Source: Nitrosomonadales bacterium (GTDB taxonomy: Bacteria; Pseudomonadota; Gammaproteobacteria; Burkholderiales; Gallionellaceae). From it: a DNA stretch of 64,000 nucleotides. The position numbers were made by a program, and so were the translations under genes. Shown here one piece after another: positions 18,393 through 40,434 of this stretch. Below the pieces are notes generated by a model. That model made no database searches and was not told where the DNA came from. It saw only the letters and a list, made by a program, of their open reading frames with translations. The stretch's first letter is position 1; every line of letters begins with the position of its first letter. The DNA is taken from positions 372,001 to 436,000 of the forward strand of contig JAHFQZ010000001.1 in NCBI GenBank assembly GCA_023259055.1, read 5' to 3'.

Positions 18393-18796
18393 TCCGCGTA
18401 GATACTGTTATCCCGAGAACTAATGGGGTCAGCATCGTAATTGCTTTCGAGAAGTGCAGTTATTGAAAGCAAAGTTGAAGCTGACCCGTTTGGATTTTTG
18501 GTTTTAACCGTCATCTATATCGTTCCTTATTACCGAACTGCAGAGTTCTCTGCTTCCACAAAATCCTGGCCAACTCGTGCGGAACTGGCACGACATCGCG
18601 ATGCCCGGCTGCATGATTGCCGGGTAATCAGTGTGCGGCACCGCACGGATGCAAACGACAAGCTCCGATAAGGTCACAGCAATTGCATACGGTGCTTGGC
18701 GTATCGATGGCAACGGCTGGTTTCCTTTTTTCGCAGACGTTGCTTTTTCGATCAATTCCTGGCACTTCACATAAACCGACCTGATAGGGAGCACCC
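18393..18796. other. Spacer with a palindromic repeat, no gene
   Basis: 404 bp between the RelA/SpoT-domain gene and the HU operon. It contains the palindromic repeat listed separately. The remainder shows only short unconvincing frames and presumably holds the HU operon promoter. Confidence 0.5.
18425..18487. repeat. Palindromic GGGTCAGC repeat
   Basis: The left arm GGGTCAGCATCGTAATTGCT and the right arm (read on the other strand) GGGTCAGCTTCAACTTTGCT form an imperfect inverted repeat of about 23 bp per arm, with a short centre. This is the first full member of the repeat family that recurs in spacers up to about 40 kb. Confidence 0.75.
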
Positions 18797-19102
18797 ATGG
18801 ATCAATCTGAGCTTATTGAAAAAGTTGCAAAGGAGTTGGCCATATCGAACGCTTCGTCACAGCGCTTGCTGAAGGCGACACTGCGGGAGATTCGTGACCT
18901 GCTCCGGGTCGGACACGCGGTAACCATCCCGCACCTTGGCACTTTCGATACGGCGACGTACGAGGAGCACCGTGGTTATCGGCCAGTCAGTCATGACTTT
19001 GCGATCTTCCCAAAACGGCGCGTACCCGTGTTTCGCACGGGCACATTGCTTCGTGATGAAGTTTACGATATCGAATCGGACGAAGCCGGTGCGCCGACAT
19101 GA
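18797..19102 (+). CDS. HU/IHF-like DNA-binding protein
   Basis: About 101 residues. It has the HU fold order: N-terminal helices (ELIEKVAKELAISNASSQRLL, then LREIRDLLRVGHAVTI), the PHLGTFDTATYEEHRGYRP strand-arm segment and a beta return (VPVFRTGTLLRDEV). It diverges from housekeeping HU, resembling the divergent HU-like domains of CCDC81-type proteins. A GGGAG precedes the ATG. Its last codons overlap the next gene's start (ATGA), so the two products are made together and may pair as a heterodimer. Confidence 0.75.
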   Translation: MDQSELIEKVAKELAISNASSQRLLKATLREIRDLLRVGHAVTIPHLGTFDTATYEEHRGYRPVSHDFAIFPKRRVPVFRTGTLLRDEVYDIESDEAGAPT

Positions 19103-19992
19103 GCGACGACAACAAGATAACGCTCCACGCCTTTGCGGCGCTGGTGGCCGCGCGTGCCAAGGTCAGTAGTGCCGAAGCAGACGCCTATATCCACCAACTC
19201 GCGAAGACCATGAGTGAGGAATTGGAGGCGGGTGGCGACATTCATCTGTATCACTTTGGTCGTTTCCATACGACCCATGTCGATGAACAGGCGGGGCACG
19301 ATCCCAACTCCGGCGCGCCGTTAACGATTCCCGAGCACTCGCGTGTTCACTTTCGCCCCTACGGCGCATTGCGTTTTGCAGTCAACGCGCCTTTCAATCA
19401 GCTGCGAATCAGGGAACTCACTCCGGACAAAACAGCTTGGCGTACCAGAACCGGCGTTTGGATCTTGCTGGTGCTGCTTGCATTGCTGCTGATCGTGCTC
19501 GGCATCAGGTCAAAGAGTGGGGTATCCACTCAGGATGCGTCCCTGGTTCCGCCCGCTACTGTTCCAGCTGTTCCCGCTGTTCCCGCTGTTCCCGCTGCTC
19601 CAGCTGCTCCAGCTGCTCCAGCTGCTCCAGCTGCTCCAGCTGTTCCCGTAGAACCGGAAACCGCCCCATCGGTAGCTGCGGCGACGGGGGTTATCGTGTC
19701 GCCCGGCGATACGTTGTGGGGGATTGCTGCGACCAGATTGGGCGATTCCGCTTGGTGGCCGATTATCTATGCGGAGAACAGACCAGAGTTGCCCCGCCGA
19801 AACCCGGACCTGATCAAAAGCGGGATAACACTGCGGATACCCGCTCTGGCCGGTAGTGTGAACAACCCTAGTGCCGCTGATCTCCGTCTGAAAACGAGCG
19901 GCTACCAAATAGCGGCCGACGATTACCGGAAACTTGGCAATCCTCGAGCCGCAGAGTATGAGAAGGTCGCGAAGCGCTGGTCTAAAGAATAA
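19099..19992 (+). CDS. HU-like domain, transmembrane helix and LysM domain in one protein
   Basis: About 297 residues. Residues 1-95 repeat the HU-like pattern (ALVAARAKVSSAEADAYIHQL, HLYHFGRFHTTHVDEQAGHDP, VHFRPYGALR). A single membrane helix follows at about 119-136 with arginines on its N-terminal side, which puts the HU domain inside and the rest in the periplasm. Next comes a PAVPA/PAAPA linker (155-184) and a LysM domain (about 197-248: VSPGDTLWGIAATRLGD...WWPIIYAEN...PDLIKSGITLRIP). LysM binds peptidoglycan sugars. As drawn, the protein could connect DNA to the cell wall. It overlaps the upstream HU gene by four bases. Confidence 0.82.
   Translation: MSDDNKITLHAFAALVAARAKVSSAEADAYIHQLAKTMSEELEAGGDIHLYHFGRFHTTHVDEQAGHDPNSGAPLTIPEHSRVHFRPYGALRFAVNAPFNQLRIRELTPDKTAWRTRTGVWILLVLLALLLIVLGIRSKSGVSTQDASLVPPATVPAVPAVPAVPAAPAAPAAPAAPAAPAVPVEPETAPSVAAATGVIVSPGDTLWGIAATRLGDSAWWPIIYAENRPELPRRNPDLIKSGITLRIPALAGSVNNPSAADLRLKTSGYQIAADDYRKLGNPRAAEYEKVAKRWSKE
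19561..19650 (+). repeat. Ten tandem 9-bp units encoding the Pro/Ala/Val linker
   Basis: Units of the form GTTCCCGCT and GCTCCAGCT repeat ten times without a break (one starting variant, three GTTCCCGCT, five GCTCCAGCT, one ending variant). They encode a rigid periplasmic spacer between the membrane helix and LysM. In-frame 9-bp units can vary in number without breaking the gene. Confidence 0.9.
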
Positions 19993-20034
19993 TCGGGTAG
20001 CGTAGCCCAGCCTTGCGATTGACCTCCCAGGCGA

Positions 20035-20240
20035 ATCGATGGGGTCAGACTCCTTTGATCCATAAAAATGGCTCACTCCATCGACGTACTCCAGTCCAGC
20101 ATAATCCAGTCACGGGATTGGATGACCAGATCGGATTTGGGGATGGCGCAACAGAACAGCGCGACGCCCGCATCTCTTTCCTCCGCGGACAGGGCAGTTC
20201 CGTTGCCTTGCCGTGATCCACCCTACCTTGCAGCACATCG
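20035..20240 (-). pseudogene. Broken second copy of the 3' part of the 2Fe-2S ferredoxin gene, with attached repeat
   Basis: This stretch aligns base by base with 21396-21603. Both begin ATCGATGGGG(T/G)CAGACTCC and continue through the reverse-strand 3' half of the ferredoxin gene to CAGCACATCG. The copy lacks one base at GGGCAGTTCCG (GGGCAAATTCCG in the intact gene), giving a frameshift, and lacks the cysteine-cluster half. It is therefore a non-functional fragment. The left end is the GGGGTCAGACTCC repeat, and eight bases beyond the right end begins a second type of hairpin. Confidence 0.85.
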
Positions 20241-20248
20241 AGTGATAT

Positions 20249-20296
20249 AGGGACGGAGCCCCATTCATTCATTTCATTCAATAGGGCTCCGTCCCT
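20249..20296. repeat. AGGGACGGAGCCC inverted-repeat hairpin
   Basis: The arms AGGGACGGAGCCC and GGGCTCCGTCCCT are perfect 13-base inverted repeats around a 22-base AT-rich loop. No T-run follows, so I read it as a REP/MITE-like intergenic element, not a terminator. It abuts the broken ferredoxin copy. Confidence 0.75.
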
Positions 20297-20412
20297 CTAT
20301 CATTGAGCGTTCCGTCATACGCGTCCAGTTCGGCGGCAGCATGTAGCCTCCAATCGTCTTTCTGACCTAACCAGCCTTCCGGCAAGAATATAGTCTTGCA
20401 ATCGGGATCAAT

Positions 20413-20431
20413 TAGGACTAAATTGGTTCTA
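20413..20431. promoter_or_regulatory. Candidate operator before the 20507 gene
   Basis: TAGGAC and GTTCTA form a near-perfect inverted pair around a 7-base AT-rich centre in the spacer upstream of the 20507 gene. The shape resembles the operators of Rrf2-type Fe-S regulators, but no such regulator is in the window. The rest of the 20297-20506 spacer shows nothing else. Confidence 0.25.
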
Positions 20432-20506
20432 CATTAGAGCGCGCTAATACTTTGGCAGGACAGCACGCCTTATACCGACCGTTCACAACTTTTTGCGGAG
20501 GACTAA

Positions 20507-20917
20507 ATGTATACCCCAATTAGCGTTCCTTTTGGTGCCAAGATGCTTTTCAACACCGTGAAACTGAAACCCGGCGTGGAGATGGAGGATGTCGAGCTGG
20601 CTTTGGGCGAGATGTGTAACGTGGTGAAAGAGACCTACGGCGGCGACAAGGGCGGGTTTATCGCCGGCCAGGTTTTCAAGTTCTCGGGCTTCGTGTCCAA
20701 AGAAGGCTCGCTGAACGGCGTCAGAGCGGCAGACGACCACATCGCGATTGTCACGTTCTGGAATTCGTTCGGCGAGCACGAGAGATCCCATGCCGACAGC
20801 GCGTTCAAGGAGAAATTCGAGGCGCTGAGTGATCTGTGCGTGGACAGCAAGGAGTTGGGCTACGACATGCTGTGGCAGGGTGAGCCGGAATGCCGGGCCT
20901 CCGGTTGCGCAGGGTAA
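20507..20917 (+). CDS. Conserved small protein of unknown function
   Basis: About 136 residues, soluble, with an alternating strand-helix pattern (KMLFNTVKLKPGVEMEDVEL, VTFWNSFGEHERSH) that could be a dimeric alpha/beta barrel of the ABM-like type. That is a structural guess. The C-terminus ends in ECRASGCAG with two cysteines. A good GCGGAGG precedes the ATG. Not recognised as a named family. Confidence 0.65.
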   Translation: MYTPISVPFGAKMLFNTVKLKPGVEMEDVELALGEMCNVVKETYGGDKGGFIAGQVFKFSGFVSKEGSLNGVRAADDHIAIVTFWNSFGEHERSHADSAFKEKFEALSDLCVDSKELGYDMLWQGEPECRASGCAG

Positions 20918-21048
20918 CCGCAGGCAGACTCAACGAAAATACTGGCCTGAACAATCAGGCCAGACTAAAGGTACCGGAGTCGAACTGTTTCAGTGCATGG
21001 TGACAGGCTAGATGATTTTCAACACCGCAATAGTTTTTCACAAACCAG

Positions 21049-21114
21049 AGAATCGATCATAGAATCGATGGCATAGAATCGATGGGGTCACATAGAATCG
21101 ATGGGGTCAGACTC
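21049..21114. repeat. Tandem AGAATCGAT units running into the GGGGTCAGACTCC repeat
   Basis: Four AGAATCGAT units lie in a row, the last three as CATAGAATCGATGG. Two of these continue as GGGTCAC and GGGTCAG. The last copy passes into GGGGTCAGACTCC, the same repeat found at 20041 and, as GGGGGCAGACTCC, at 21402. The pattern suggests slippage or repeated insertion at the same site. Confidence 0.7.
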
Positions 21115-21146
21115 CATTGATACCTAAACAATCGGAAAGGGTTCTT

Positions 21147-21287
21147 ATGTCGAAAACGCTATGCAAAACAAAGGATGCGGAAAAACGTGCCAAGAAGCAG
21201 GCCGATCCAAAGTTTGTATGTGCCAAATGCGGCAAAAAGGTACACAAAGAAAAACACGTATGTAAGCCTGAAAAATTACAAAACTGA
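21147..21287 (+). CDS. 46-residue zinc-ribbon-like protein
   Basis: A short gene with GGAAAGGG upstream of the ATG. The lysine-rich product contains CAKCGKKV then HKEKHVC, a CxxC plus HxxxxC arrangement consistent with one bound zinc ion. It is basic and may bind nucleic acid; that is inference. It lies between two repeat copies, like a stand-alone unit. Confidence 0.6.
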   Translation: MSKTLCKTKDAEKRAKKQADPKFVCAKCGKKVHKEKHVCKPEKLQN

Positions 21288-21323
21288 TGTGGTCAGCAAT
21301 GCAATAGTTTTCAGGATGCCATC

Positions 21324-21398
21324 ATGGAAATAGAGAAGATCAATTCGGGCGAGTTGCGCGCCATCGGCTACGATGCGCGCGCCCGGCTGCTAAAGATC
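21324..21398 (+). pseudogene. 5' fragment of a KTSC-domain gene cut off by a repeat
   Basis: The first 25 or so codons (MEIEKINSGELRAIGYDAR...) and the leader before them match the intact KTSC gene at 35582. Similarity stops exactly where ATCGATGGGGGCAGACTCC begins, after which the sequence is that of the ferredoxin 3' end on the other strand. It is a truncated remnant with an intact leader. Confidence 0.8.
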
Positions 21399-21434
21399 GA
21401 TGGGGGCAGACTCCTTTGGTCCATTAAAAATGGC

Positions 21435-21743
21435 TCACTCCATCGGCGTCTCCCAGTTCAGCATACTCCAGTCACGGGGTTGGATGACCAGATCGGATTT
21501 GGGTATGGCGCAACAAAACAGCGCGACGCCCACATCTCTTTCCTCCGCGGACAGGGCAAATTCCGTTGCCTTGCCGTGATCCACCGTACCTTGCAGCACA
21601 TCGCCCTTGCACAATCCGCACGCTCCATCGCCGCAACCCCGCGGCAGCTTGATGCCATGCTTATTTGCAGCTTCGAGGATGGTTTCGCCAGCTTCGGCGG
21701 TGAAGGTGTGATTGTCCGGCTGTAGTGTGATACTGAATTCCAT
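21435..21743 (-). CDS. 2Fe-2S ferredoxin (plant/adrenodoxin-type fold)
   Basis: About 102 residues. The cysteine pattern is Cys37-x4-Cys42-x2-Cys45, then Cys77 or Cys78 (RGCGDGACGLC ... ALFCC), the standard ligand set for a ferredoxin-type 2Fe-2S cluster. The segment AEERDVGVALFCCAIPKSDL resembles the ferredoxin domains attached to flavin reductases, but here it stands alone, so the electron partner is unknown. The gene's 3' half is duplicated as a fragment at 20035-20240. Confidence 0.88.
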   Translation of the reverse strand: MEFSITLQPDNHTFTAEAGETILEAANKHGIKLPRGCGDGACGLCKGDVLQGTVDHGKATEFALSAEERDVGVALFCCAIPKSDLVIQPRDWSMLNWETPME

Positions 21744-21859
21744 GGCGTCTTCTCGGTTGATTAGCGGCCAGCTCTCAGAATTTGCGAGACGTAGGCCCTT
21801 GCAAAAAAGAGGCTACGATACATGCTGACGGGGTGTGGCTCAAGTAAAATAGACCTAAC

Positions 21860-21899
21860 GGGTCAGGGAGCCAATAGGGGTATGCCTAATGGGTGACCC
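21860..21899. repeat. GGGTCA/TGACCC inverted pair
   Basis: GGGTCAGGGAGCC and, 22 bases on, GGGTGACCC face each other in the spacer between the divergent ferredoxin and CPBP protease genes. The arms share the GGGTCA core of the repeat family. It may be a degenerate member. Confidence 0.4.
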
Positions 21900-22015
21900 T
21901 TTTAATTCTCCGCCAACGAGAATGTGATTTGTAAGGCCTGGCCCAAGGGCCTGTGTGGTTGATCGGTAGCCCGGTTACTTTTGTGATTCCATGTTGCATG
22001 ATGCAGGAGGGGATG

Positions 22016-22837
22016 ATGAATGTTCGCACATCAAAAAGAAGATCGCTTCGAAACTTCCTTCTCCTGCTGTTCGCTTTGTCTATTCCGCTCTGGATATTCG
22101 GCTCGATTGTCGATGTGCAAATCTTTCCCGGATTCAATTTGTATCAGCTCCCGCTTGCGATGCCGATGGTCACTGCGCTGATTCTCATTTACCGGGAAAG
22201 CGGTAAATCCGGTGTCATTGCGCTGTTAAAAAGAACCTACGACTTTCGCAACATTAAGTCCAAAGCCTGGTACATTCCTATGCTTCTGATGATTCCCAGC
22301 ATAGGTTTTATAGAATATTTGATTCAACGCTTTTCAGGAACATCTATTCCGCCACCGCAATTCTCATGGGCTATCCTCGCTTACATCTCAGTTTTCTTTA
22401 TGACCTACGGAGAAGAATTGGGTTGGACGGGATACCTCATTGACCCAATGCAAGCTCGATGGAGCGCACTTAAATCAGGAATACTCGTTGGAATAGTGTG
22501 GGCAGTCATCCACTTTCCGATTCACTACATTAACGGATATTCATTCGAATGGATTTTCTGGCACGGTACCTATACTGTGGCGGCCCGAGTTTTGATGGTC
22601 TGGATCTATAACAATGCCGGGAAGAGCTTGTTTGCTATGGCTTTGACCCATTGGACATTTGGCATGTTCTGGTGTCTATGGCCTGTGGAAAATTTGCATC
22701 GGGTCGTGTCTTTTTACGACCCGCGCATCATGGCCTTTACCGCCATATTCTATACTGTGATAGTGACGTTGTTGTGGGGGGGCACGACATTGGCGCAGTA
22801 CAGATATTGGAGGGCGAGCTTTACAAATCGATCATGA
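22016..22837 (+). CDS. CPBP-family intramembrane metalloprotease
   Basis: About 273 residues with eight or so hydrophobic segments. The CPBP/Abi signature EELGWTGYL is present (in many family members this reads EExxWRG; Thr replaces Arg here, a known variant), followed by the second motif around VWAVIHFPIH and a third near HWTFG. Such proteins cleave membrane substrates or protect against bacteriocins. The start was chosen by AGGAGG five bases upstream; the ATG at 22013 and two further upstream are in frame. No partner gene is evident. Confidence 0.8.
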   Translation: MNVRTSKRRSLRNFLLLLFALSIPLWIFGSIVDVQIFPGFNLYQLPLAMPMVTALILIYRESGKSGVIALLKRTYDFRNIKSKAWYIPMLLMIPSIGFIEYLIQRFSGTSIPPPQFSWAILAYISVFFMTYGEELGWTGYLIDPMQARWSALKSGILVGIVWAVIHFPIHYINGYSFEWIFWHGTYTVAARVLMVWIYNNAGKSLFAMALTHWTFGMFWCLWPVENLHRVVSFYDPRIMAFTAIFYTVIVTLLWGGTTLAQYRYWRASFTNRS

Positions 22838-22852
22838 ACTAAGACGGCCAAA

Positions 22853-23098
22853 GGGATCAGCATCGCAATAGGGAACAATCAGGAACCCACGCCCTGTTTG
22901 AAATCCGTAAATCATCCCCCCTACTGAACGAGTCCGTTGTACAGGAAAAATGCGTAGGCGCTGACGAGTCCGCCGCCGACAAAACGCGGGATGCGCCCCA
23001 AGACGCCTGTGTAATCAGGAAGCTTAGGCAAGAAAGGCTATAATTCAAACAGCAGCCGTTGTCATTATCTTTTCACCGATGGAAACAATGCTGACCCC
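22853..23098. mobile_element. 246-bp MITE-like element with GGGATCAGCAT / ATGCTGACCCC ends
   Basis: The stretch starts with GGGATCAGCATCGCAATAG and ends with ATGCTGACCCC, which read inward are the same repeat with one mismatch. Inside, on the minus strand, is a short reading frame ending at a TAG at 22921-22923 (translation includes PDYTGVLGRIPRFVGGGLV and a hydrophobic tail) that looks like the C-terminal end of a membrane protein without its start. It therefore appears to be a gene fragment captured between inverted repeats. No transposase. Confidence 0.6.
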
Positions 23099-23120
23099 AC
23101 TGAAAAACTGAGCGTGAAAA

Positions 23121-23486
23121 ATGTCCAAAACTATTTTAATTGTTGATGATTCTGCTGCCATCCGCCAAATGGTGGCATTTACCCTGAAATCGGAGGGCTA
23201 TGCCGTAATTGAGACGGAAGATGGCGAAGAGGCGTTAGCCAAGGCTAATTCGCATGCTATTGATCTGGTGCTGACCGACCAGAACATGCCCAACATGGAT
23301 GGTTTAACTTTGGTGAAAACGCTGCGCGGCCTTCCGAAGTTTGCCACCACTCCTATTCTTGTGTTGACCACCGAATCCGGCGATGCAAAGAAAATGGAAG
23401 GCAAGGCGGCGGGCGCCAATGGGTGGCTGGTCAAGCCGTTCAACCCCCATACGTTGCTCAATGTCGTCAAAAAGTTTGTAGGCTAG
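23121..23486 (+). CDS. Single-domain CheY-like response regulator
   Basis: About 121 residues, receiver domain only: acidic pair VDDS near the N-terminus, phospho-acceptor Asp in LTDQNMPNMDG, VLTTES with the switch Thr, and VKPF with the conserved Lys. No output domain, so it should act by protein contact. It resembles the CheY-type regulators found with chemotaxis or pilus systems, but no kinase or Che gene is nearby. The start follows directly on the 22853-23098 element. Confidence 0.88.
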   Translation: MSKTILIVDDSAAIRQMVAFTLKSEGYAVIETEDGEEALAKANSHAIDLVLTDQNMPNMDGLTLVKTLRGLPKFATTPILVLTTESGDAKKMEGKAAGANGWLVKPFNPHTLLNVVKKFVG

Positions 23487-23509
23487 TAGCCCTCGGAAGA
23501 GAGTTAATA

Positions 23510-23532
23510 GGGTCAGCATCGCAATAGATTCG
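23510..23532 (+). repeat. GGGTCAGCATCGCAATAG spacer repeat
   Basis: This copy matches the one at 22853 in the core GTCAGCATCGCAATAG. It lies 24 bp after the CheY stop and about 80 bp before the next ATG. Confidence 0.7.
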
Positions 23533-23614
23533 ATGAGGGGGTTGAAATCGCGAATTCAAAAAGCATCGCAAGATTGAACGGCTGGCAGGTCGAAGTAATT
23601 AAAAAGGAGCAGGA

Positions 23615-24235
23615 ATGTTTAAGGTGGGTCTACTGTTTGGTTTTGTATTCCTGTCAGGTTGCGCAAGCACGCTTGGAGGCCAAACCGCAAAACCATGGGA
23701 TTTGCTCAGTGAGCAAGCTGCTCAATGTTTCTATGGTCTTGAAAAAGATGCAGAGCTCGCAACCATTGCGAACAAAGTGATGCTTATTCACTCTTTGGAA
23801 TACGCAAAGGAGACGAACCAGGAATTCACGAAGATCAGGGAGCTCCCCAATCCGGAAGAACTGAAGGTGATTCAAAAATGGGCAGCAAAGTTAGAGGTTT
23901 GTTACAAGATCAGGGCTGCACACCATGCTTACGAATCACCAAGGGTTGTAATGGCTTCTATCGAGTCAGATGCCGAGCAGCAATTACTGGTAACGGAGCT
24001 GTATAAGGGAAAACTTTCCTTTGGGCAATTTGCAATTAAGCGTAACCAGCTCAACTCACTTCGTTCCAGCCTGTTCCTTCATGCTGTGACTGCCGACATC
24101 AAGGAGTTTGAAGCAAGCCAGCTTTACCGTCCAGACGGATCAAAAACAGCACCACCGCCATCGTCAAATTCTCCTTGCGGGTATGTGGGCTCGAAGGGCA
24201 ACTATCGTTGGGTTTGTCGAGAGAAGAACGATTAA
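23615..24235 (+). CDS. Lipoprotein of unknown function
   Basis: About 206 residues with lipobox LSGC (Cys16), so probably a membrane-anchored lipoprotein. The mature part is mainly helical with a Pro/Ser-rich segment before a C-terminal CGYVGSKGNYRWVC, where two cysteines bracket a small loop. AGGAGCAGG lies before the ATG. Family not recognised. Confidence 0.65.
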   Translation: MFKVGLLFGFVFLSGCASTLGGQTAKPWDLLSEQAAQCFYGLEKDAELATIANKVMLIHSLEYAKETNQEFTKIRELPNPEELKVIQKWAAKLEVCYKIRAAHHAYESPRVVMASIESDAEQQLLVTELYKGKLSFGQFAIKRNQLNSLRSSLFLHAVTADIKEFEASQLYRPDGSKTAPPPSSNSPCGYVGSKGNYRWVCREKND

Positions 24236-24280
24236 GAGATAATGGGTTCAGCATGAACTGACCACGGTTTTCCGTTTGAG

Positions 24281-24319
24281 TTAAAGGGGCCAAGCTCGAA
24301 ACAGTTTGAGGATGCCATC
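24281..24319 (+). repeat. Leader repeat (AAAGGGGCCAAGCTCG...GGATGCCATC) before the Omp85-like gene
   Basis: TTAAAGGGGCCAAGCTCGAA, then ACAGTTTGAGGATGCCATC, ends at the ATG. It aligns with the leaders at 21289 and 35549 over the whole length, and similarity continues into the first eight codons of the gene. Confidence 0.75.
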
Positions 24320-25633
24320 ATGAAAATGAAGCTAATCAATTCGGTCATGAAGCAATTCTCCGTAACGCTATGCCTGTTGATCGTGCTGGTTCCGGCTGCG
24401 AGTGCCGGGGACGAAACGGCTGACTCCGCAGGAACAGGGTACTCGTTTCTCGTCGACCGCCGCAAGGAGCAATTCGAGACCAGCTTTGCATACGCAGTCT
24501 TCCCCCTGCCGTACTCTCTTCCCGGCATCGGCAAGGGCATCTCACTGGTCGGCGGCGCCATGAACATCGCGAACACATACACCGATGCATACGGCATCGT
24601 ATACGGAGGCGACGTTGAAGGCGCGGCAGTGGGCCTGGCCGACATTCACATCATCCCGCGAACGCTTATCCTCGATGTCGGCGGCGGCGCGGTGAACAAG
24701 GCTTCGATCCAGAACTTCAGGGAACGGGGCATGAATACGAACAAGGATAACTACCTCTTGTTCGATGTCGACAATTCGGAATATTTCGGCGGCAGGTTGA
24801 CGGCCACGTTTCTCGAGCGCCGCTTTGAAATGTACGGGGCATGGTACGGAGGCGCATCGAAGCTGCGCAGCATCCGGGACAAGGACGGCAATGTGATTGT
24901 CGAGGCGCATAACGCCTCACGCCAGAGCTCTCACTCGACCATATTCGGAACACGCATTGACCTGACCGACGACTATGACGACCCCAGGCGAGGAGCTCGT
25001 CTCGCGGTGACACGGTCATCATCCCCGCCCAGCGATTCGGGACCGGATTACTCCGTGATGGACTACAACATGACAGCCTACATTCCCATGGCCAGCCGGA
25101 ATACCTGGGCATTCAATTACCTGCGCTCGGATGCGATCGTCAGCAGCAAGGGCGAGACCGATCCGGCCAAAATCCAGACCCAGCGGGGAATCAATTGCAG
25201 CGATCCCGCGCTCACGCCGCAGCAACAGCAATACTGTGCCGATGCGGTGAACCTGGTAATCGCAAACAATACCTATGGCACGGCCACATCGCTCGGCGGC
25301 TTCGACCGTCTGCGTTCCTATTCCCAAGGGAGATACCGCGGAGCTCACACCCTGTTCTACGGTACCGAGTTCCGCTGGAACCTCACCGAAGAGGCCAAGC
25401 CGTTCGACCTTTTCATCATGAAGGATATCCGGACTTCAGTGCAGCTTGCCGCCTTCTACGAGATTGGCAGCACTGCCGATCTGCGGGATGACGTGGGCAA
25501 GACATGGCGGAAATCCTATGGAGTCGGGTTCAGGATGGTCACGGCTTCGGGGGTCGTGTTCCGCGGGGATATCGCGGATGGGCATGATGGCGTCTCGACA
25601 GCGATTTTCATCGGCTACCCATGGGAGCTTTGA
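24320..25633 (+). CDS. Omp85/surface-antigen-type outer-membrane barrel without POTRA domains
   Basis: About 437 residues. A signal peptide (TLCLLIVLVPAASAG) precedes a barrel-like sequence with alternating hydrophobic strands. The features YFGGRLTATFLERRFE, TDDYDDPRRGARLAVT, GFDRLRSYSQGRYRG and the end GVVFRGDIADGHDGVSTAIFIGYPWEL match the barrel of Omp85/bacterial surface antigen proteins. No POTRA repeats fit before it. The first residues MKMKLINSV come from a leader shared with the KTSC genes, so the ancestral start may be the Met at residue 10. Role unknown. Confidence 0.75.
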   Translation: MKMKLINSVMKQFSVTLCLLIVLVPAASAGDETADSAGTGYSFLVDRRKEQFETSFAYAVFPLPYSLPGIGKGISLVGGAMNIANTYTDAYGIVYGGDVEGAAVGLADIHIIPRTLILDVGGGAVNKASIQNFRERGMNTNKDNYLLFDVDNSEYFGGRLTATFLERRFEMYGAWYGGASKLRSIRDKDGNVIVEAHNASRQSSHSTIFGTRIDLTDDYDDPRRGARLAVTRSSSPPSDSGPDYSVMDYNMTAYIPMASRNTWAFNYLRSDAIVSSKGETDPAKIQTQRGINCSDPALTPQQQQYCADAVNLVIANNTYGTATSLGGFDRLRSYSQGRYRGAHTLFYGTEFRWNLTEEAKPFDLFIMKDIRTSVQLAAFYEIGSTADLRDDVGKTWRKSYGVGFRMVTASGVVFRGDIADGHDGVSTAIFIGYPWEL

Positions 25634-25644
25634 ACGATATAAGC

Positions 25645-25675
25645 AATTAAAAGGGCAAGGCTCGATATCCAGGAG
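25645..25675 (+). repeat. AATTAAAAGGGCAAGGCTCG spacer repeat
   Basis: A degenerate copy of the AAAGGGGCCAAGCTCG spacer repeat, between the Omp85-like and hydrolase genes. Confidence 0.55.
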
Positions 25676-25724
25676 GTCGCCAGAGATTTATGCGTGACTC
25701 AATTTGAAAGACTGGAGAACGAAA

Positions 25725-26717
25725 ATGAAGAAGATAAAACTCTGGATGCTTGGTTTGATCCTTCTGCTGGCGTTGCCTTTGTTGCTGTCGTTTTTTCCGT
25801 GGCTGCATGTTCCCAGAACGGTCCAGTTTGACGCTGGGCTCCCCTATACGGAAATCAACGGTTACAAATTCCATACGGAAATCTTTGGCAAGCCGGAGGC
25901 GACACCTCTCATTGTGGTGCATGGCGGGCCGGGCGGGGATTACGAATACCTGAGGCCGTTGCAGAATCTGTCGAAGGATTACCGCGTCATTTTCTATGAC
26001 CAGAGAGGCACGGGTTTATCCCCGCGAGTGGACAAAAAATATCTCACGGTTGAACAGAACCTGGACGACCTGAAAGCCATCGTCGAACATTTTTCCAATG
26101 GCAACAAGGTAAAGCTCATCGGCCATTCCTGGGGCGGGATGCTGGTCGTTGGTTACCTGTCGCAATATCCGGAGAAGGTGTCGCAGGCAGTGGTAGTCGA
26201 ACCCGGAATCCTGTATCCGGAATCTGCCAAGGCGGATGTCAAAATAATCAAGGGATCGCAAACTATCGGGGATGCCTTCGCGCTTGCCCAATACGTAGCC
26301 ATGTATCCCTTCGTCAGCAAGGAGGATGGACAGGAGGGCTACGATTATGTGATGACCGAGCTTATGAACCGGAATAAACCCGGCCCGCCTTATCAATGCG
26401 AAGGCCAGGCCATGCCGCCCGGCATATTCAAGCGGGGAGGCTATGAGGCCATGAACAATACGGTGAAGACCGTGATTGATAATCCCGAATTATTTACTTA
26501 TGACTTGACCGAGGGAATATCCCGTTATCGCGGAGACTTGATGCTGATCAGCAGTGATTGCAGCGCTATCGGCTATGCCTATCAGGAAAAATATCATGTT
26601 CCGAAACTCCCGGCGCAGACTGTGCACGTAAAGGCTGCAGGCATGGGGCATAACATGCTGACCCTTAATCTGGAATGGAGCCTGAAAACCATAGGGGCGT
26701 TTTTCAAGCCGCAATAA
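25725..26717 (+). CDS. Membrane-anchored alpha/beta hydrolase, proline iminopeptidase-like (S33)
   Basis: About 330 residues. The N-terminal hydrophobic segment (LWMLGLILLLALPLLLSF) should act as an anchor or signal. The hydrolase core shows HGGPGGDYEYLRPL (oxyanion region), DQRGTGLSPR and the nucleophile elbow GHSWGG with Ser135; a C-terminal GMGHNML supplies the likely catalytic His. The HGGPG and DQRG motifs are those of prolyl iminopeptidase-like enzymes. GGAGAACG before the ATG fixes the start. Substrate unknown. Confidence 0.82.
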   Translation: MKKIKLWMLGLILLLALPLLLSFFPWLHVPRTVQFDAGLPYTEINGYKFHTEIFGKPEATPLIVVHGGPGGDYEYLRPLQNLSKDYRVIFYDQRGTGLSPRVDKKYLTVEQNLDDLKAIVEHFSNGNKVKLIGHSWGGMLVVGYLSQYPEKVSQAVVVEPGILYPESAKADVKIIKGSQTIGDAFALAQYVAMYPFVSKEDGQEGYDYVMTELMNRNKPGPPYQCEGQAMPPGIFKRGGYEAMNNTVKTVIDNPELFTYDLTEGISRYRGDLMLISSDCSAIGYAYQEKYHVPKLPAQTVHVKAAGMGHNMLTLNLEWSLKTIGAFFKPQ

Positions 26718-26720
26718 ATT

Positions 26721-26749: not shown

Positions 26750-26763
26750 CGGGAGGAATAGAA

Positions 26764-31728: not shown

Positions 31729-32408
31729 GTACCTGCAACAAGATGGCGAATCATGTAAACGAGATAGAGCGAGAGCACGGCAGCGAAGAAGCACCAGACA
31801 GAGATATAGGCATAACTAAAGGCCTCCGATGTCAACACCATGGACAAGGTAACCAGCCCCCCGAAGATTCTGATCCACTTGTGGCTGGAGAAGAGCAGCG
31901 GCACAAGGATAGTCAGGGCATAGAGCGCAGCTGACGTGATCGGAAGATGAATGGAGCTGCGAAAGGGGACGGAAAAATTGTAGGCGATGGAGTGTTCTCT
32001 TACCGCAACCTCCCTCCACTCGGGATGCAAGAGCATGGCTGAATAGACCAGCGTACCTGCGAGAGCGCCGAAAGCGGCGCAGCCGCCAAAGACCCTCCTG
32101 CGAATCTTTCCAACCTTGTTGGTCTGGCCGGGCTCGACAAGGTAGCTGCAGAGCGGGAGCCACCACAACCACAGAAAATGCGAAAAGAAGTGAAACCCCA
32201 GCGCATATGGCATTACTGCACCGGCATTCCCCGCATCGAGCTCCTGCCATACCCGTCCCTCGAATGCCTGCTGGATACCGAAGAAGACAGGTACCAGCGC
32301 CCACATCCAGTATGCGGGCGGCAACCGCCTTGCCTGCTGGACGGAATACAGTCCAGTAGTCACCAGCACGGCAGCGGCGCTGTAGCTAACTGTTGCAGAA
32401 AAGCACAT
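31710..32408 (-). CDS. DUF6629-family membrane protein
   Basis: About 232 residues, seven hydrophobic segments. The N-terminus MCFSATVSYSAAAVLVTTG is the recurring start of this family; FFGIQQAFEGRVW, HFLWLWWLP and a Tyr/Trp-rich C-terminus also fit. Function not established. One of the few leftward genes in this stretch. Confidence 0.75.
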   Translation of the reverse strand: MCFSATVSYSAAAVLVTTGLYSVQQARRLPPAYWMWALVPVFFGIQQAFEGRVWQELDAGNAGAVMPYALGFHFFSHFLWLWWLPLCSYLVEPGQTNKVGKIRRRVFGGCAAFGALAGTLVYSAMLLHPEWREVAVREHSIAYNFSVPFRSSIHLPITSAALYALTILVPLLFSSHKWIRIFGGLVTLSMVLTSEAFSYAYISVWCFFAAVLSLYLVYMIRHLVAGTKSISP

Positions 32409-32724
32409 TGGGCAAAAGTGTCACCTGTAATTGTCATGCGGGCAGATAACGGAACCATAGCATTAACATGTGCAAACATCGAAATAATTTCTAGTACTAA
32501 TGAGGCAGCATGATCTGAAACAACCAACTCACTGGCAACGGCGTTCCGATGCTCTTCTTTCTCTGTATGCGGACAATGTTAAGCGCGAGCATGGCGGCGC
32601 CTGGAAGATCGCTCGCTTGATTGACAATAGCGATTGTGTACCAGCAAGCAGCTAGTAGAATAGTTACAATTAAAGGGGCCAATCTGGCCCCTTGTCACCG
32701 ACATAATTCTCTATTCTTACCACG
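32409..32724. other. Spacer with a hairpin and a possible gene remnant
   Basis: 316 bp between two leftward genes. On the minus strand there is a 60-codon frame (about 32497-32682; APLIVTILLAACWYTIAIVNQ near its start) that opens with TTG inside the hairpin. It could be the end of a membrane protein gene fused to the repeat, but it has no independent support. Confidence 0.35.
32674..32692 (-). terminator. GGGGCCA/TGGCCCC hairpin after the HD-GYP gene
   Basis: The 7-base perfect stem GGGGCCA-ATC-TGGCCCC, read on the minus strand, is followed by TTTAATT, 34 bp past the HD-GYP stop. It may serve as its terminator. The same DNA read rightward (TTAAAGGGGCCAA) matches the spacer repeat core. Confidence 0.5.
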
Positions 32725-33951
32725 TCAAACATACCTCTTTCCAATGGCAATGATCGAGTCGAGAGCTATAAAGAAAGCATCTATCATTTCCGGGTCAAAT
32801 TGTTTTCCCCTGCCCTTCCTTAATTCCTCCAGAACATCCTCTTGACCCCATGGCTCCTTGTAAACACGTTGGGATGACAGGGCATCATATACATCCGCTA
32901 TTGCCACAAGCCTCCCGAATGGTGGTATCTCTTCGCCTTTGCGGCCAATGGCCTTGCCATCGCTGGTTTCATAACCCGGGAGGCATTGGCCGGTCATGAC
33001 GTTGATGTACCCCGGATACCCGTTTCCGTCCCAGCGTTCATGGTGGGAGAGCGCCACCTGGGCTGCAGCCTCGTCAAAATCGGAGTGGGATACGGCAAAG
33101 AGTTTTGCGCCCAGATATGTGTGAGTCTTCATGATTTCGTATTCAGCAGGATCGAGGCGAGCCGGTTTTTTCAGGATCATATCCGAGATGGCCACCTTGC
33201 CAACATCGTGAAGCATGGCGGCGATCCTCAGTATGTCCTTGTTTTTTGCAATCTCAGCTCCAGATACCCCGCGGCGGCTTGCCCATACTTCGTATATCTC
33301 AACGGCATATCCGGCCACCCTGTTTACATGGGCGCCTGTTTCTTTGGGATCTCTGAGCTCCGCCATGCTGATCATCCTGAGGATGATGTCCCTGGTAAGC
33401 TTGGCCCTTTCTATGGCAATGGCCGCGTTGTTGGCAAAGTGGACAATGTACTGTTCGTCATCTTTTGAAAAAGGGATGATGTTCCCACCTTCATCCATTG
33501 AATTTATTAGCTGGAGCACGCCAATAACCTGGCCCTGGAGGTTCTTCATGGGGAAAGTCAGCATCGACTTCGTGCGATATTGGGAGATATCGTCATAGCT
33601 TTTGTTGAATGCGTAAGTGACATCCTCCTTGAGCTCATAGACATCCGGGATGTTAAGCATCTCGCCTGTACCAGCCACGTAGCCGCAGATTGATTCGTTA
33701 TCGACAGGTGTCGTGAAGGTGGAATAGATAAGCTTCTGTCCCGGTTGCAGCCTCTTCTGTATGGTGTTGTTCAACGTGTAGCTGAACTTCAGGTAGTTTC
33801 CCTCCATGATATAAATGGAGCCGGCATCAGCGTTGGCAAATTGACATGACACAGTGAGAATGTGCTCAAGGAGAATATCAAGGTCGTTTACCCTGGCAAT
33901 TTCCTGACTGAGGCCAATGATCTGGTTAATTTTCTGCTTTTCATCGAGCAT
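32725..33951 (-). CDS. GAF/HD-GYP cyclic-di-GMP phosphodiesterase
   Basis: About 408 residues. An N-terminal GAF domain (residues about 20-165, IYIMEGNYLKF, FPMKNLQGQVIGVLQL) precedes an HD-GYP domain: LHDVGKVAISD holds the HD pair, KTHTYLGAKL follows, then LSHHERWDGNGYPGY with the GYP motif, and IADVYDALSS. All metal-binding positions look intact, so c-di-GMP hydrolysis is likely. No receiver domain; the GAF domain should sense a small ligand. AGGAGG precedes the ATG at 33951. With the GGDEF/EAL protein at 501 it is the second c-di-GMP enzyme in the window. Confidence 0.92.
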   Translation of the reverse strand: MLDEKQKINQIIGLSQEIARVNDLDILLEHILTVSCQFANADAGSIYIMEGNYLKFSYTLNNTIQKRLQPGQKLIYSTFTTPVDNESICGYVAGTGEMLNIPDVYELKEDVTYAFNKSYDDISQYRTKSMLTFPMKNLQGQVIGVLQLINSMDEGGNIIPFSKDDEQYIVHFANNAAIAIERAKLTRDIILRMISMAELRDPKETGAHVNRVAGYAVEIYEVWASRRGVSGAEIAKNKDILRIAAMLHDVGKVAISDMILKKPARLDPAEYEIMKTHTYLGAKLFAVSHSDFDEAAAQVALSHHERWDGNGYPGYINVMTGQCLPGYETSDGKAIGRKGEEIPPFGRLVAIADVYDALSSQRVYKEPWGQEDVLEELRKGRGKQFDPEMIDAFFIALDSIIAIGKRYV

Positions 33952-34052
33952 AAATCCTCCTATAACCATCTCTTGAAATGCGATATCTTGAATATATCAG
34001 GCTGTTTCTTTTATACAAGCCCTCTGTTTCGATTCTACTCTGTATAAACTAT

Positions 34053-34087
34053 AGTGGTCAGCATCGCATTACATTTGGAGAGCTGAA
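34053..34087 (+). repeat. GTGGTCAGCATCGCATTAC leader repeat before the cellulase gene
   Basis: The core GGTCAGCATCGCA matches copies at 22853 and 23510. It ends at the ribosome site TTGGAGAGC, seven bases before the ATG. Confidence 0.7.
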
Positions 34088-35518
34088 ATGGAAGCGTTTC
34101 AGAAAAACAATTGCAAGGCAGACATCTTTGATTACCGAATAATCAAAATGACAATAACTCTAAAAAAAATCTATGTGTTGGCGGCACTTTTCGCCTTAGG
34201 CATTGCAGCGAGCCAATCTAATGCAGCCGGTATTTCTTCAGGCAGCGGTTCATCGAAACAGCGCATGCGTAATCCATTTGTGGGCGCAACCTGGTACGTA
34301 AACCCAATATGGCGGAACAACGTTTTAAAGGAGCCCCATGGTTCTTTGATAGCCAATTACAGCACGGCGGTATGGCTTGATCACATTGGCGCGATTGCTC
34401 CAACCGATGGTGTTACCTGGGGTTTGGCGGCACATCTGGATCACGCGATTTCGCAAAAGGCCAACCTGATCGAAATCGTTATTTACGATTTACCGAATCG
34501 CGACTGCAACGCCCTGTCGTCCAGCGGTGAGTTGTTAATTTCAAAAGACGGTTTTAATCGTTACAAAAATGAATACATCACCCCACTGGTGAAAATCTTG
34601 GCCAATGCAAAATACAAAGATCTGCGAATTATCGCCATCATTGAACCCGATTCATTGCCCAACCTGGTGACCAACACCAGTGTAAAAAAATGTCAGGAGG
34701 CCGCAGGCGTAGGGGGTTATGTGGAAGCTACGCAATTTACGCTTGACTCGCTCTACCCGCTTTCCAACGTGTACAGTTATGTGGATATCGGCCACTCGGG
34801 CTGGCTGGGTTGGGATGACAACCTGAGCAAATCCGCCTCCTTTATTGCTACTGCCATTAAAGGTACTGCCAATGGTGTGAACAGTGTCGCAGGTTTTATC
34901 TCTAACACCGCTAACTACACACCGTTGAGCGAGCCGTTCCTTGATGAGTTTTCCATGAGTGCAGTGCCTGGTAGCAATGGAAGCATTCAAGTGCGTCAGG
35001 CCAGGTTTTATGGATGGAATGCCCATTATAGTGAGTCAGCTTATGTCCAGGCTTTCCACGAGAAAATGATTTCTTTTGGCTTCCCATCCACCATTGGTAT
35101 GCTGGTAGATACTTCACGTAATGGATGGGGTGGCGCAAAGCGTCCCAAGGCTTTGTCAACAAATAACAATGTTGATGCTTTTGTCGATCAATCAAGAATC
35201 GATCGCCGTGTTAACCGTGGTTTGTGGTGTAACCAGCCTGGCGGTATTGGCGAGCGTCCAGCGGCGACTCCTGTGCCCGGTATTGATGCTTACGTCTGGA
35301 TAAAACCACCAGGTGAGTCTGATGGTGTTGCTATGGCTGGTATCATCGATCCAGATGATCCTGCTAAAAGTTTCGACCCCATCTGCGATCCGACTTATGT
35401 CGCTCCGGATTCTGATGGCCAGCCGACTGGCGCAATGCCAAGCGCACCACATGCCGGTCGCTGGTTTAGTGCTGGTTTCAAAACGTTAATAGAAAATGCC
35501 TATCCACCCCTGAAATAA
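34088..35518 (+). CDS. Secreted glycoside hydrolase family 6 cellulase
   Basis: About 476 residues. The catalytic domain shows the GH6 signatures: IVIYDLPNRDCNALSSSGE (first signature), IAIIEPDSLPNLVTN (second, with the Asp near the cleavage site) and LVDTSRNGWGG near the C-terminal base. GH6 enzymes cleave beta-1,4-glucan with inversion. No cellulose-binding module is attached, and no other polysaccharide gene is near. The signal peptide (AALFALGIAASQSNA) is preceded by 30 residues; the ATG at 34088 has GGAG, but the ATG at 34148 would give a normal-length signal, so the first 20 residues may be a captured leader. Confidence 0.88.
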   Translation: MEAFQKNNCKADIFDYRIIKMTITLKKIYVLAALFALGIAASQSNAAGISSGSGSSKQRMRNPFVGATWYVNPIWRNNVLKEPHGSLIANYSTAVWLDHIGAIAPTDGVTWGLAAHLDHAISQKANLIEIVIYDLPNRDCNALSSSGELLISKDGFNRYKNEYITPLVKILANAKYKDLRIIAIIEPDSLPNLVTNTSVKKCQEAAGVGGYVEATQFTLDSLYPLSNVYSYVDIGHSGWLGWDDNLSKSASFIATAIKGTANGVNSVAGFISNTANYTPLSEPFLDEFSMSAVPGSNGSIQVRQARFYGWNAHYSESAYVQAFHEKMISFGFPSTIGMLVDTSRNGWGGAKRPKALSTNNNVDAFVDQSRIDRRVNRGLWCNQPGGIGERPAATPVPGIDAYVWIKPPGESDGVAMAGIIDPDDPAKSFDPICDPTYVAPDSDGQPTGAMPSAPHAGRWFSAGFKTLIENAYPPLK

Positions 35519-35548
35519 GGGATCGCTGACTGACCTGCGGGCGTCAAC

Positions 35549-35581
35549 GGGCCAGGCACGAAATAGTTACAGGATGCCGCC
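35549..35581 (+). repeat. GGGCCAGGCACGAAATAG leader repeat before the KTSC gene
   Basis: It runs through GTTACAGGATGCCGCC to the ATG and aligns with the leaders at 21289 and 24281. Confidence 0.75.
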
Positions 35582-35845
35582 ATGGAAATGAAGAAAATCA
35601 ATTCGGGCAGGTTGCGCGCCATTGGCTACGATGCGCGCACCCGAATACTGCAGATCCAGCTCGACGACGGCAGCACGCTACAGTACGGCAGCATCGGCGA
35701 GGATACATGGCGCCGGTTCAGCAGCTCGGGGGCGGCCTGGAGCTTCTATCGCGACAACATCGAGGAAGAGTTCGCTGCAAAACGCGTTTCTGGAAGCGCT
35801 CCCGCAGGCAAGAACCCGCTCGACGATTTATTCCGGAAATCCTGA
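35582..35845 (+). CDS. KTSC-domain protein
   Basis: About 87 residues. INSGRLRAIGYDARTRILQI, then DDGSTLQYGSIGEDTWRRF and WSFYRDNIEEEF fit the KTSC domain, a small beta-rich domain found alone or next to nucleic-acid enzymes and of unknown role. This is the intact copy of the gene whose 5' fragment remains at 21324. Confidence 0.8.
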   Translation: MEMKKINSGRLRAIGYDARTRILQIQLDDGSTLQYGSIGEDTWRRFSSSGAAWSFYRDNIEEEFAAKRVSGSAPAGKNPLDDLFRKS

Positions 35846-35850
35846 ACGAA

Positions 35851-35880
35851 TTAAAGGGGGTAGCATCGAACTAAAGTTGG
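35851..35880 (+). repeat. TTAAAGGGGGTAGCATCGAA spacer repeat
   Basis: It fills most of the 45-bp gap between KTSC and the peroxidase gene and combines the AAAGGGG and AGCATCGAA cores. Confidence 0.65.
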
Positions 35881-37088: not shown

Positions 37089-37238
37089 ATGTTTTTACGT
37101 ATATCTTGTATGAACACATTAAACCGTCTGGTCATAATGTGCGGCGCATCCATCTTGATTGCCGCATCCATCTTTACGGGCAGCCTGCGGCAACGGCTTT
37201 ATCCGGCTTTGTCTTCTGCTTGTTCTGCCTTATTCTGA
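37089..37238 (+). pseudogene. Truncated exported-protein gene
   Basis: A strong AAGGAG lies before the ATG, and the first 30 residues look like a signal peptide (LVIMCGASILIAASIF). The frame then runs 40 bp into the 3' end of the oppositely oriented AI-2E transporter gene and stops after 49 codons. This reads as a leader plus signal sequence whose body was lost. It could instead be a real tiny membrane peptide. Confidence 0.4.
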
Positions 37239-38868: not shown

Positions 38869-39726
38869 ATGGAATTTACACGCAAAGGAGCTGTCGCTTC
38901 GATACTCACGTTGTTGTCACTGACTCTGCTGGCAGGATGTAAAGGTGGCAGCAATGCGTCGCCATCGAACTGGTTTCCCACCAGCAGCATCTACGCTTAC
39001 ATGAAGGCAGTTCAGAACGAAAGCGGCGGCGTTACCACGTCGGTGCAGCTGCGCGACGGGCCGGCCAGCACTGCCGCCTATCTCTATCTCTCCAGCGGCG
39101 AGAATCTTTACTCCAGTCTCGATGTGCCGCCCCAGCAATACCTTACTTTCAATAACGATCTTTTCGGCAATTCTTTGGACTTGTCGCAACACCTGAAGGT
39201 GATGTCATCACGCGACATCTACACCGATTACTTCCTGTTCACCCAGATCGTCTGGGGGAAACCTGAATATTTTTCGCTCGACACACCGAGCGCCAGCTCA
39301 ATACCAACACGTGCCTATGTTGGCTTCGAACGCGCCGGGAATGTTATGACGGGAGATTCCTATGTCGAGTTGCCCCCGGTATTCCAGATTCTCGCACCAG
39401 CCAGTAATGCCAGCGTCTCACGCGCTTCCCCCATTATCCTCACCTGGTCAGGCGCCGACCCAGCATCCACGATGGAGCTCGACGTGGCGGGTATCTGCAT
39501 AGACAATAGCCAATATACCCTGCATCTAATTCTCGGCGCCGATACGGGATCTGCCACTCTGAATGGCGCCAGTTATTTCCCGGCCACCGGGATCAACCCA
39601 TCGATCAGCTGCCGTGTGGCCTTTTTGCTCCAGCGTGTGCGCTTAGGGGGCGTCTCTGCGCAATTTGCCTTCGGCAGCTTCAAGGGCGTTCAGCAAAAAA
39701 CCGTTCAATTCACATCCAACCCATAG
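38869..39726 (+). CDS. Lipoprotein of unknown function
   Basis: About 285 residues with lipobox LLAGC. The mature part is beta-rich. It contains an FQILAPASNASVSRASPIIL segment resembling an Ig-like strand repeat and three cysteines (ICID, ISCR). The ATG at 38851 is also in frame with AGGAG one base away. It sits 9 bp before the next gene, an outer-membrane barrel, so the two probably act together at the outer membrane. Confidence 0.65.
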   Translation: MEFTRKGAVASILTLLSLTLLAGCKGGSNASPSNWFPTSSIYAYMKAVQNESGGVTTSVQLRDGPASTAAYLYLSSGENLYSSLDVPPQQYLTFNNDLFGNSLDLSQHLKVMSSRDIYTDYFLFTQIVWGKPEYFSLDTPSASSIPTRAYVGFERAGNVMTGDSYVELPPVFQILAPASNASVSRASPIILTWSGADPASTMELDVAGICIDNSQYTLHLILGADTGSATLNGASYFPATGINPSISCRVAFLLQRVRLGGVSAQFAFGSFKGVQQKTVQFTSNP

Positions 39727-39735
39727 GAGCCTGGC

Positions 39736-40263
39736 ATGGATCGCCCCATTTGCAAACTGTTGCTCTCACTGTTGCTGCTAACGGCAACTCATGCGTATGC
39801 CGACAGCTCCTTCGTTGTTTCACCCTCGGTGGGAAGTGCATCGATCAGCAACATCAACGGTTATAAAAATTCTTCCTATCTGCGCGTCGACGGCAGCTTT
39901 CATCCCCTACCCGAGTTTGGGATCAACCTGTTTGTTGCCGGCTATTCCGGTTTCAACTCCAGTGGCAGCGGCAACAGCGTCGCCATCAAGCTAAGCGGTT
40001 ACGGGGCGGGAGTGACCGGCAAATGGCCTGTCCACCCGCATGCGCAACCATATGTTCGTGTCGATCACATGCGATGGAATGCCGAAGCCACCGGCCTTGG
40101 CAGAACTCTTGCGAAGGACAAGGGAGGTAGCACAGGGCTTGCAGTGGGGATGCAATTTCCCATCAAAAGCATCTATGGGATCAAGGCCGAGATGTCAGGC
40201 TACAACAATGTAAGCGGTGCTGATATCAGACAGTTTTCTCTGGGGCTGACAATCGTATTTTAG
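39736..40263 (+). CDS. Small outer-membrane beta-barrel protein
   Basis: About 175 residues. A signal peptide ending in THAYAD is followed by eight or so amphipathic strands with Gly/Tyr/Ser-rich turns, and the last residue is Phe (LGLTIVF), the usual outer-membrane insertion signal. It begins 9 bp after the lipoprotein gene and has GGAG before the ATG. Function unknown. Confidence 0.75.
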   Translation: MDRPICKLLLSLLLLTATHAYADSSFVVSPSVGSASISNINGYKNSSYLRVDGSFHPLPEFGINLFVAGYSGFNSSGSGNSVAIKLSGYGAGVTGKWPVHPHAQPYVRVDHMRWNAEATGLGRTLAKDKGGSTGLAVGMQFPIKSIYGIKAEMSGYNNVSGADIRQFSLGLTIVF

Positions 40264-40346
40264 GTGCGGCGCTCAGGTCAACAAAATCCAACATCAAGCA
40301 ACATCAGGATCAGAGTGATTTGTTTTCAGCAACTAGCTAATGGGGT

Positions 40347-40389
40347 CTACTCTCCGAATTTTCGAGATGCAGGATTCGGTCGAGAGTAG
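40347..40389. repeat. CTACTCTC..CGAA hairpin after GGGGT
   Basis: CTACTCTCCGAA and TTCGGTCGAGAGTAG form an imperfect stem; GGGGT lies just before it, so it may be a diverged member of the GGGGTCAGC spacer family. It is the last such element on the right side of the accessory region. Confidence 0.45.
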
Positions 40390-40434
40390 CATAATCATAG
40401 CCAGACCACGGTACCCAAGTAATCACTATCGCCC

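Follow-up and report, generated by a model that had tools for sequence, protein, structure and literature searches.

Short repeats in a gene-turnover hotspot flanked by uup and an M20 peptidase gene

We analysed a stretch of 64,000 nucleotides from a Nitrosomonadales genome (hereafter the window; C4:372001-436000 in an assembly of 2.6 Mb in 9 contigs), in which short repeats recur in the spacers between uup, an ABC-F gene (14762-16531), and an M20 peptidase gene (41369-42859). The interval between these two anchors (16532-41368) holds 28 called genes, 23 of them rightward, and the description of the zone as mostly rightward in an earlier reading of the sequence (the original prediction) was accurate. 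That reading took the repeats for leaders beneath which new genes are installed. Our analysis identifies them as the ends of a known type of small transposase unit and not as a new gene-capturing leader system, and so puts right an inviting but mistaken view of the zone as cassettes built on leaders.

A search with the KTSC gene of the interval (35582-35845, plus strand; Pfam PF13619) recovered relatives in Gallionella, Candidatus Ferrigenium, Sideroxydans and other Nitrosomonadales. At the thresholds used, uup was present in 56 and M20 in 43 of 61 genomes. The compared set comprised 19 genomes, namely the genome of the window and 18 relatives with both anchors on one contig; G007 was excluded, its anchors being on one contig but 141 kb apart, and in the remaining genomes the anchors lay on separate contigs or one was missing. 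The anchors are 2.75-25.6 kb apart in the 18 relatives, 17 of which are collinear, with G001 showing the opposite relative orientation. When the 19 intervals alone were compared, 177 of 228 gene families were present in one genome only, so that gene content varies while the flanks stay fixed, as the original prediction had anticipated. The KTSC gene is present in 15 of the 19 intervals, and the HD, DUF6629, 27861/28460, 26764 and 20507 genes recur at new places, DUF6629 in both orientations. The uup-M20 interval is a gene-turnover hotspot across species.

Repeats in the hotspot match the ends of Y1 transposase genes

Three cores had been proposed to be shared by the spacers, and two of them clearly exceeded shuffled sequence: GGGGTCAGCATCG had 8 window matches at up to 2 mismatches (shuffle mean 1.8; 0 of 100 shuffles reached 8) and GGGGTCAGACTCC had 4 (shuffle mean 0.8; 0 of 100 reached 4). 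The third, AAAGGGGCCAAGCTCG, hardly did, since 2 of 100 shuffles reached its 4 matches at up to 3 mismatches. In the genome of the window GGGGTCAGNNTC was found at 14 positions and its reversed pattern at 3, and 3 of the 14 exact 12-mers fell in the interval (p = 3e-4). Exact GGGGTCAGNNTCG occurred 94 times in the 19 genomes, the reversed pattern 13 times, and the uup-M20 intervals held 12 of the 94 where 0.4 were expected.

To score copies independently of the hotspot, we used a weight matrix drawn entirely from outside it. Of the 82 exact GGGGTCAGNNTCG copies outside the intervals, 67 were read; 18 lay inside called genes, and the 49 intergenic copies gave the matrix (consensus AATTAAAGGGGTCAGCTTCGCATTATT; site threshold, a score of at least 9). 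All 16 window sites reaching this threshold lay within 18418-35875, with none in window 1-16531 or 41369-64000. At a score of 10 the matrix found 78 sites, against 4 on reversed sequence, in the 19 intervals with their flanks plus the window, a count that the region of the window enters twice. Over the 19 genomes, 62 sites fell in the 225 kb of intervals and 4 in the 115 kb of flanking sequence (compared per intergenic base, p = 4e-5). The repeat family in the window is thus restricted to the zone of variable gene content between fixed flanks. The site at 34107 falls within the GH6 gene and may be a chance match, and two copies listed in the original prediction, at 31671 and 35549, scored below 9. 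A further model, R1, was trained on 7 window copies and 19 copies from the hotspots of relatives; its counts (29 matches in the own genome at E 10, 9 of them in the interval) are biased by that training set and are not used as main evidence.

The genome encodes three related Y1_Tnp proteins of 236-243 amino acids, which match PF01797 above the cut-off (IS200-like) and score 71-78 bits against NCBIfam REP_Tyr_transpos, slightly below its cut-off of 80. Pfam returned no helix-turn-helix family for them at E 0.1, though the C-terminal part is present. The hotspot repeats match the terminal inverted repeats (TIRs) of Y1 genes elsewhere in the genome, and GGGGTCAGACTC and GGGGTCAGCATC each flank one such gene as an inverted pair: on C5 the pair 15468(+)/16255(-) encloses the gene 15541-16251, and on C3 the pair 254563(+)/255369(-) encloses the gene 254595-255326. 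The same cores form an inverted pair around a Y1 gene in G069 (L188), where another Y1 gene (L189, 1671-2381) is flanked by a second repeat type, AAAGGTACCGGAGTCGA (1622, plus; 2431, minus). As the CATC and ACTC cores and the AAAGGTACCGGAGTCGA type each flank Y1 genes, the repeats are the ends of several related transposase units. Within the TIR, GGGGTCAG fits the GGGGWSAS motif published for the ends of TIR-associated tyrosine transposases (TIRYTs), and TIR copies form a family of moderate size in the own genome, standing alone or in pairs. A Y1_Tnp match was found in 16 of the 19 genomes. TIRYTs probably correspond to TnpA_Y1 subclass 2.1 (PMC6006769). We also observed that AAGGTACCGGAGTCGA (L189 1622-2446; window 20967-20983), which forms an inverted pair at a Y1 gene and recurs in other loci, represents a type of TIR that departs from the GGGGWSAS motif.

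The copies in the window, all plus-strand unless stated, take several forms. An inverted pair of CATC-type TIRs makes up a 78-nt dimer (18418-18495; matrix scores 28.9 and 16.2; single-strand hairpin z -5.0) that resembles a REPIN, a doublet of repetitive extragenic palindromic (REP) sequences, or a miniature inverted-repeat transposable element (MITE). A MITE-like unit of 260 bp (22846-23105) has inverted CATC-type TIRs at its ends (22846-22872, plus, 25.7; 23079-23105, minus, 9.3), and single CATC-type TIRs lie at 23502-23528 (27.1) and at 34047-34073 (26.9), the latter preceding the GH6 gene at the right edge of the HD block. ACTC-type TIRs are found at 20034-20060 (17.2), at 21096-21122 (19.4; palindromic, z -3.1) and at 21395-21421 (9.2). 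TIR-like sites occupy the leader of a truncated KTSC gene, shared with G032 by alignment (21282-21308; 14.3), the KTSC-derived leader of gene 24320 (24279-24305; 17.2), the sequence preceding gene 26764 (26718-26744; 19.1) and the spacer that separates KTSC from the CCP gene (35849-35875; 20.6); weaker sites lie at 24237-24263 (9.1) and 25645-25671 (9.7). The AAAGGTACCGGAGTCGA type has an exact match at 20967-20983, with 0.03 expected at up to 3 mismatches, and a variant of the sequence preceding the third Y1 gene, C3:257081, recurs at 40307-40329 (GGATCAGAGTGATTTGTTTTCAG, read by eye).

Taken together, REP/MITE-type elements, which the original prediction had offered as an alternative, are a better reading than leaders. 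We consider it likely that the repeats are non-autonomous TIR copies of several TIRYTs, collected in a fast-changing region, and that they may sometimes aid rearrangement. The single TIRs, the inverted dimer and the 260-bp unit would be copies made by Y1 transposases encoded elsewhere in the genome, probably through the single-strand cutting and joining expected of this enzyme family. They would have gathered between uup and M20, a region of gain, loss and shuffling of accessory genes among species, and come to rest in spacers close to the ends of genes, the places in which they may do least harm. Occasionally they may mark or aid breaks, giving truncated 5' ends and gene blocks that end at repeats, and in this way could take an active part in turnover.

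Several observations weigh against this reading. Five intervals hold no site at all (G040, G063, G065, G044 and G001). The third Y1 gene of the own genome, C3:257081, has GGGGTCAGAGTGATTTGTTTTCAGC upstream only, with nothing similar seen in 250 nt downstream. G051, G006 and G048 lack a Y1_Tnp match, yet their intervals hold 9, 2 and 5 sites, respectively; copies can therefore persist after a local enzyme is lost, or occur where there is none. Transposase homology was found within 1 kb of only 9 of the 67 outside copies, where random positions in the same stretches give an expected 4.15. None of the 19 intervals contains a transposase gene or a clear remnant of one; seeding by a transposase since lost from within the hotspot was rejected on this ground, with one match at E 0.69 disregarded. 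A link between repeats and broken gene order has the expected direction, and the general test of it is weak: adjacency was conserved in 1 of 46 repeat-bearing spacers and in 35 of 233 others (p = 0.015, all spacers), in 0 of 42 and 8 of 143 when spacers of at least 40 nt were compared (p = 0.20), and a breakpoint test in which both flanking families occur in at least 2 genomes gave p = 0.57.

Junctions and orientation of repeats within the hotspot

Some gene-block junctions fall exactly at a repeat, which is not explained by settled TIR copies alone and speaks for copies that at times mark or aid breaks. The HD block aligns with G032 from 32669 to 34051 and with G069 to 34046, that is, from a GGGGCC hairpin to the TIR at 34047. 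KTSC sequence precedes the hairpin in G032 and G069, where the hairpin sits between convergent KTSC and HD genes; in the own genome a TIR and then the CCP gene come after KTSC. A remnant of a DNA-alkylation gene in G069, its first five codons, leads into a repeat and then KTSC. A KTSC remnant of about 24 codons (21324-21398) ends at the ACTC-type TIR at 21395, as placed by mapped boundaries, and a 208-bp segment that starts at the edge of the TIR at 20034 is duplicated at 21396 with 92% identity.

The original prediction saw the 5' ends of lost genes at three junctions. Two of these stood, the KTSC remnant and a remnant at 30487-30574 that is 81% identical to the start of gene 26764. The third, at 37089, did not: no repeat lies at the broken end of this peptide, and it has relatives in three loci, each about 44 nt behind the relative of the same CCP gene, which makes it an old neighbour of that gene. 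The sequence 37089-37235 is the truncated start of a small gene, and the relatives of its first 32 residues are those that follow the CCP gene in L070, L076 and L078. Near the duplication we observed a minus-strand gene (21435-21743) for an N-terminal 2Fe-2S ferredoxin domain (PF00111), apparently cut short at the 21395 repeat, a piece of which is duplicated at 20063-20240. A separate inverted repeat (20243-20302; TGATATAGGGACGGAGCCCCATT and AATAGGGCTCCGTCCCTCTATCA, 91% complementary) adjoins the broken end of the 20035-20240 duplicate, and its core recurs in L080.

Repeats inside the hotspot largely share one orientation. In spacers between two rightward genes (++ spacers) they are co-oriented with the genes in a ratio of 38:6, and 11 of 13 in other spacers outside genes point one way, whereas codirectional copies outside the hotspot show no bias, with 12 running with the genes and 14 against (Fisher p = 7e-4, 38:6 versus 12:14). 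Such a bias, for which settled TIR copies alone do not account, would be expected of a single-strand mechanism coupled to replication. A check of replication strand by eye in the single-contig genome G051 gave 3 plus and 2 minus outside copies among the matches listed, too few to decide.

These data bear on the possibility that two TIRs on the same strand serve a TIRYT as its left and right ends and that it mobilises the ordinary genes in between. The hotspot would then be a single-strand cassette system without an integrase, and the replication strand would determine the shared orientation. The one-way orientation inside, the KTSC and HD blocks bounded by repeats and the segment duplicated from a TIR edge all speak for such movement. 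However, we found neither an excision nor a clean empty site, only one partial 15-nt gap. The orientation counts are not independent, some inside copies being common by descent or duplication, and because an alignment is also interrupted at the boundary of a plain insertion, finding a junction at a repeat is no proof of exchange there. We regard cassette movement as possible but improbable.

Placement of repeats relative to genes

The proposal that incoming genes are put under existing leaders, which would supply promoter and ribosome site, predicts repeats close to gene starts. Inside ++ spacers, 11 of 44 repeats lay within 25 nt of a start, against 10.8 expected for random placement in the same spacer (p = 0.53). 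By contrast, stops had 16 of the 44 repeats within 25 nt, where random placement predicts 10.8 (p = 0.026), and 30 of 44 were closer to the stop than to the start (p = 0.02). The claim that repeats lie right after one stop and right before the next ribosome site thus holds mildly for stops and not for starts, and is in part an effect of short spacers. Outside the hotspot, the 48 copies with both neighbours visible were distributed over 19 convergent, 26 codirectional and 3 divergent spacers (p = 0.005 against spacer numbers and p = 0.052 against spacer lengths in the same stretches). Copies there favour convergent spacers and, as noted, occur regardless of gene direction, an outcome that the original prediction had itself named as refuting. 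Promoter-like sites numbered 15, against 16.8 in shuffles.

Individual loci do look like leader reuse. The repeats at 34047, 35849, 26718 and 24279 end directly upstream of a ribosome site, and gene 24320 carries the KTSC leader and start fused ahead of it (24284-24347 is 81% identical to the KTSC leader and start at 35546-35609). KTSC-like N termini occur in at least 5 of the first 40 relatives of the gene 24320 product, most clearly in P0019, and one old fusion would explain them. Among matches to the KTSC start, 13 of 111 are not intact genes, some places being counted twice. On the other hand, the repeat was not seen by eye in the leader of 2 of 3 CCP relatives; the third, L076, has GCTAATGGGG. 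One true reuse of a start and the shared orientation inside the hotspot are what survives of the leader proposal; on placement, orientation outside and promoter signal we rejected it as the main reading and consider it very unlikely. In the outer-membrane protein family of gene 24320 (24320-24347; P0001, P0009, P0016, P0019 and P0022), the N-terminal extensions resembling the unrelated KTSC start precede an apparent signal peptide.

Still less probable is that the repeats are native regulatory or terminator motifs of resident genes. Their nearness to stops would suit this, as would the GGGGCC hairpin at 32668-32693, which is perhaps a terminator (fold -10.4 kcal/mol, z -5.0; matrix score below 9), but the same cores flank transposase genes and occur in changing contexts, and several copies (34040, 35845 and 24274) form no hairpin.

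The integron question

The own genome encodes an integron integrase, intI, above the cut-off (C5:12475-13416; the hotspot is on C4), as do 8 of the 19 genomes in all. A home-made scan for attC sites was strict at first and, when this pattern gave a single site (both strands) even on the integron contig, was relaxed. The relaxed scan found two attC beside the C5 intI and no foldable attC-like site in the hotspot; its sensitivity is limited, since it found none in 2 of 7 other intI stretches. It also returned 3 probably chance matches in the right part of the window. A reading of the spacers as attC sites in a CALIN, an integron array that lacks its integrase, would fit the single rightward genes, the short spacers and the presence of intI in the genome, but was rejected as extremely improbable given the scan result, the lack of an integrase in the interval and the match of the repeats to transposase ends. 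Within C5:12475-16300 (L038), intI is followed by cassettes with attC sites, and the ACTC-type transposase unit lies inside this array, behind attC sites and about 2.2 kb from intI.

Relation to known elements

Di Nocera et al. 2013 (PMC3733652) named TIRYTs and TIRtrons with the GGGGWSAS motif, and the units described here resemble them in having a Y1 gene within inverted GGGGWSAS repeats and a moderate family of single, paired or grouped copies; unlike them, the copies here are concentrated in a turnover hotspot devoid of transposase genes. Quentin et al. 2018 (PMC6006769) found no REP sequences with subclass 2.1 and state that this subclass is probably equivalent to TIRYT. With GTAG REP/REPIN sequences and REP-associated tyrosine transposases (RAYTs) (Nunvar et al. 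2010, PMC2817692; Bertels and Rainey 2011, PMC3116915), the repeats share intergenic positions by gene ends, paired forms and a related transposase gene flanked by inverted copies. They differ in having no GTAG/GTGG head at the hairpin foot (consensus AATTAAAGGGGTCAGCTTCGCATTATT) and in numbering tens, not hundreds. The positions seen here, downstream of genes and in convergent spacers, are those that PMC3733652 reports for REPs. PMC2817692 reports that in a few species repeats accumulate near particular rayt genes, whereas the cluster here holds no transposase gene. Chromosomal integron arrays are alike in their single rightward genes and variable array, but the interval here holds neither an integrase nor, by the scan used, an attC-like site.

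Literature searches gave no report of GGGGTCAGACCCC, and GGGGTCAGA combined with transposase and intergenic gave only unrelated work. The parts of this system have been described before. In the literature searched, which rarely uses the term TIRYT, nothing turned up on such parts being concentrated in a mapped turnover hotspot. The TIRs can be traced as a family through related genomes, with a hotspot between fixed flanks, an orientation bias and clear junctions, which makes testable whether TIRYTs propagate nothing but their ends or also contribute to the movement of genes.

Other features of the window

Window 16590-19992 contains ParA-like and RelA/SpoT-like genes and a pair of HU-like genes, of which the second carries a 9-bp tandem repeat at 19550-19666. 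Among known RNA families at gathering score, one tRNA was the only match in the window.

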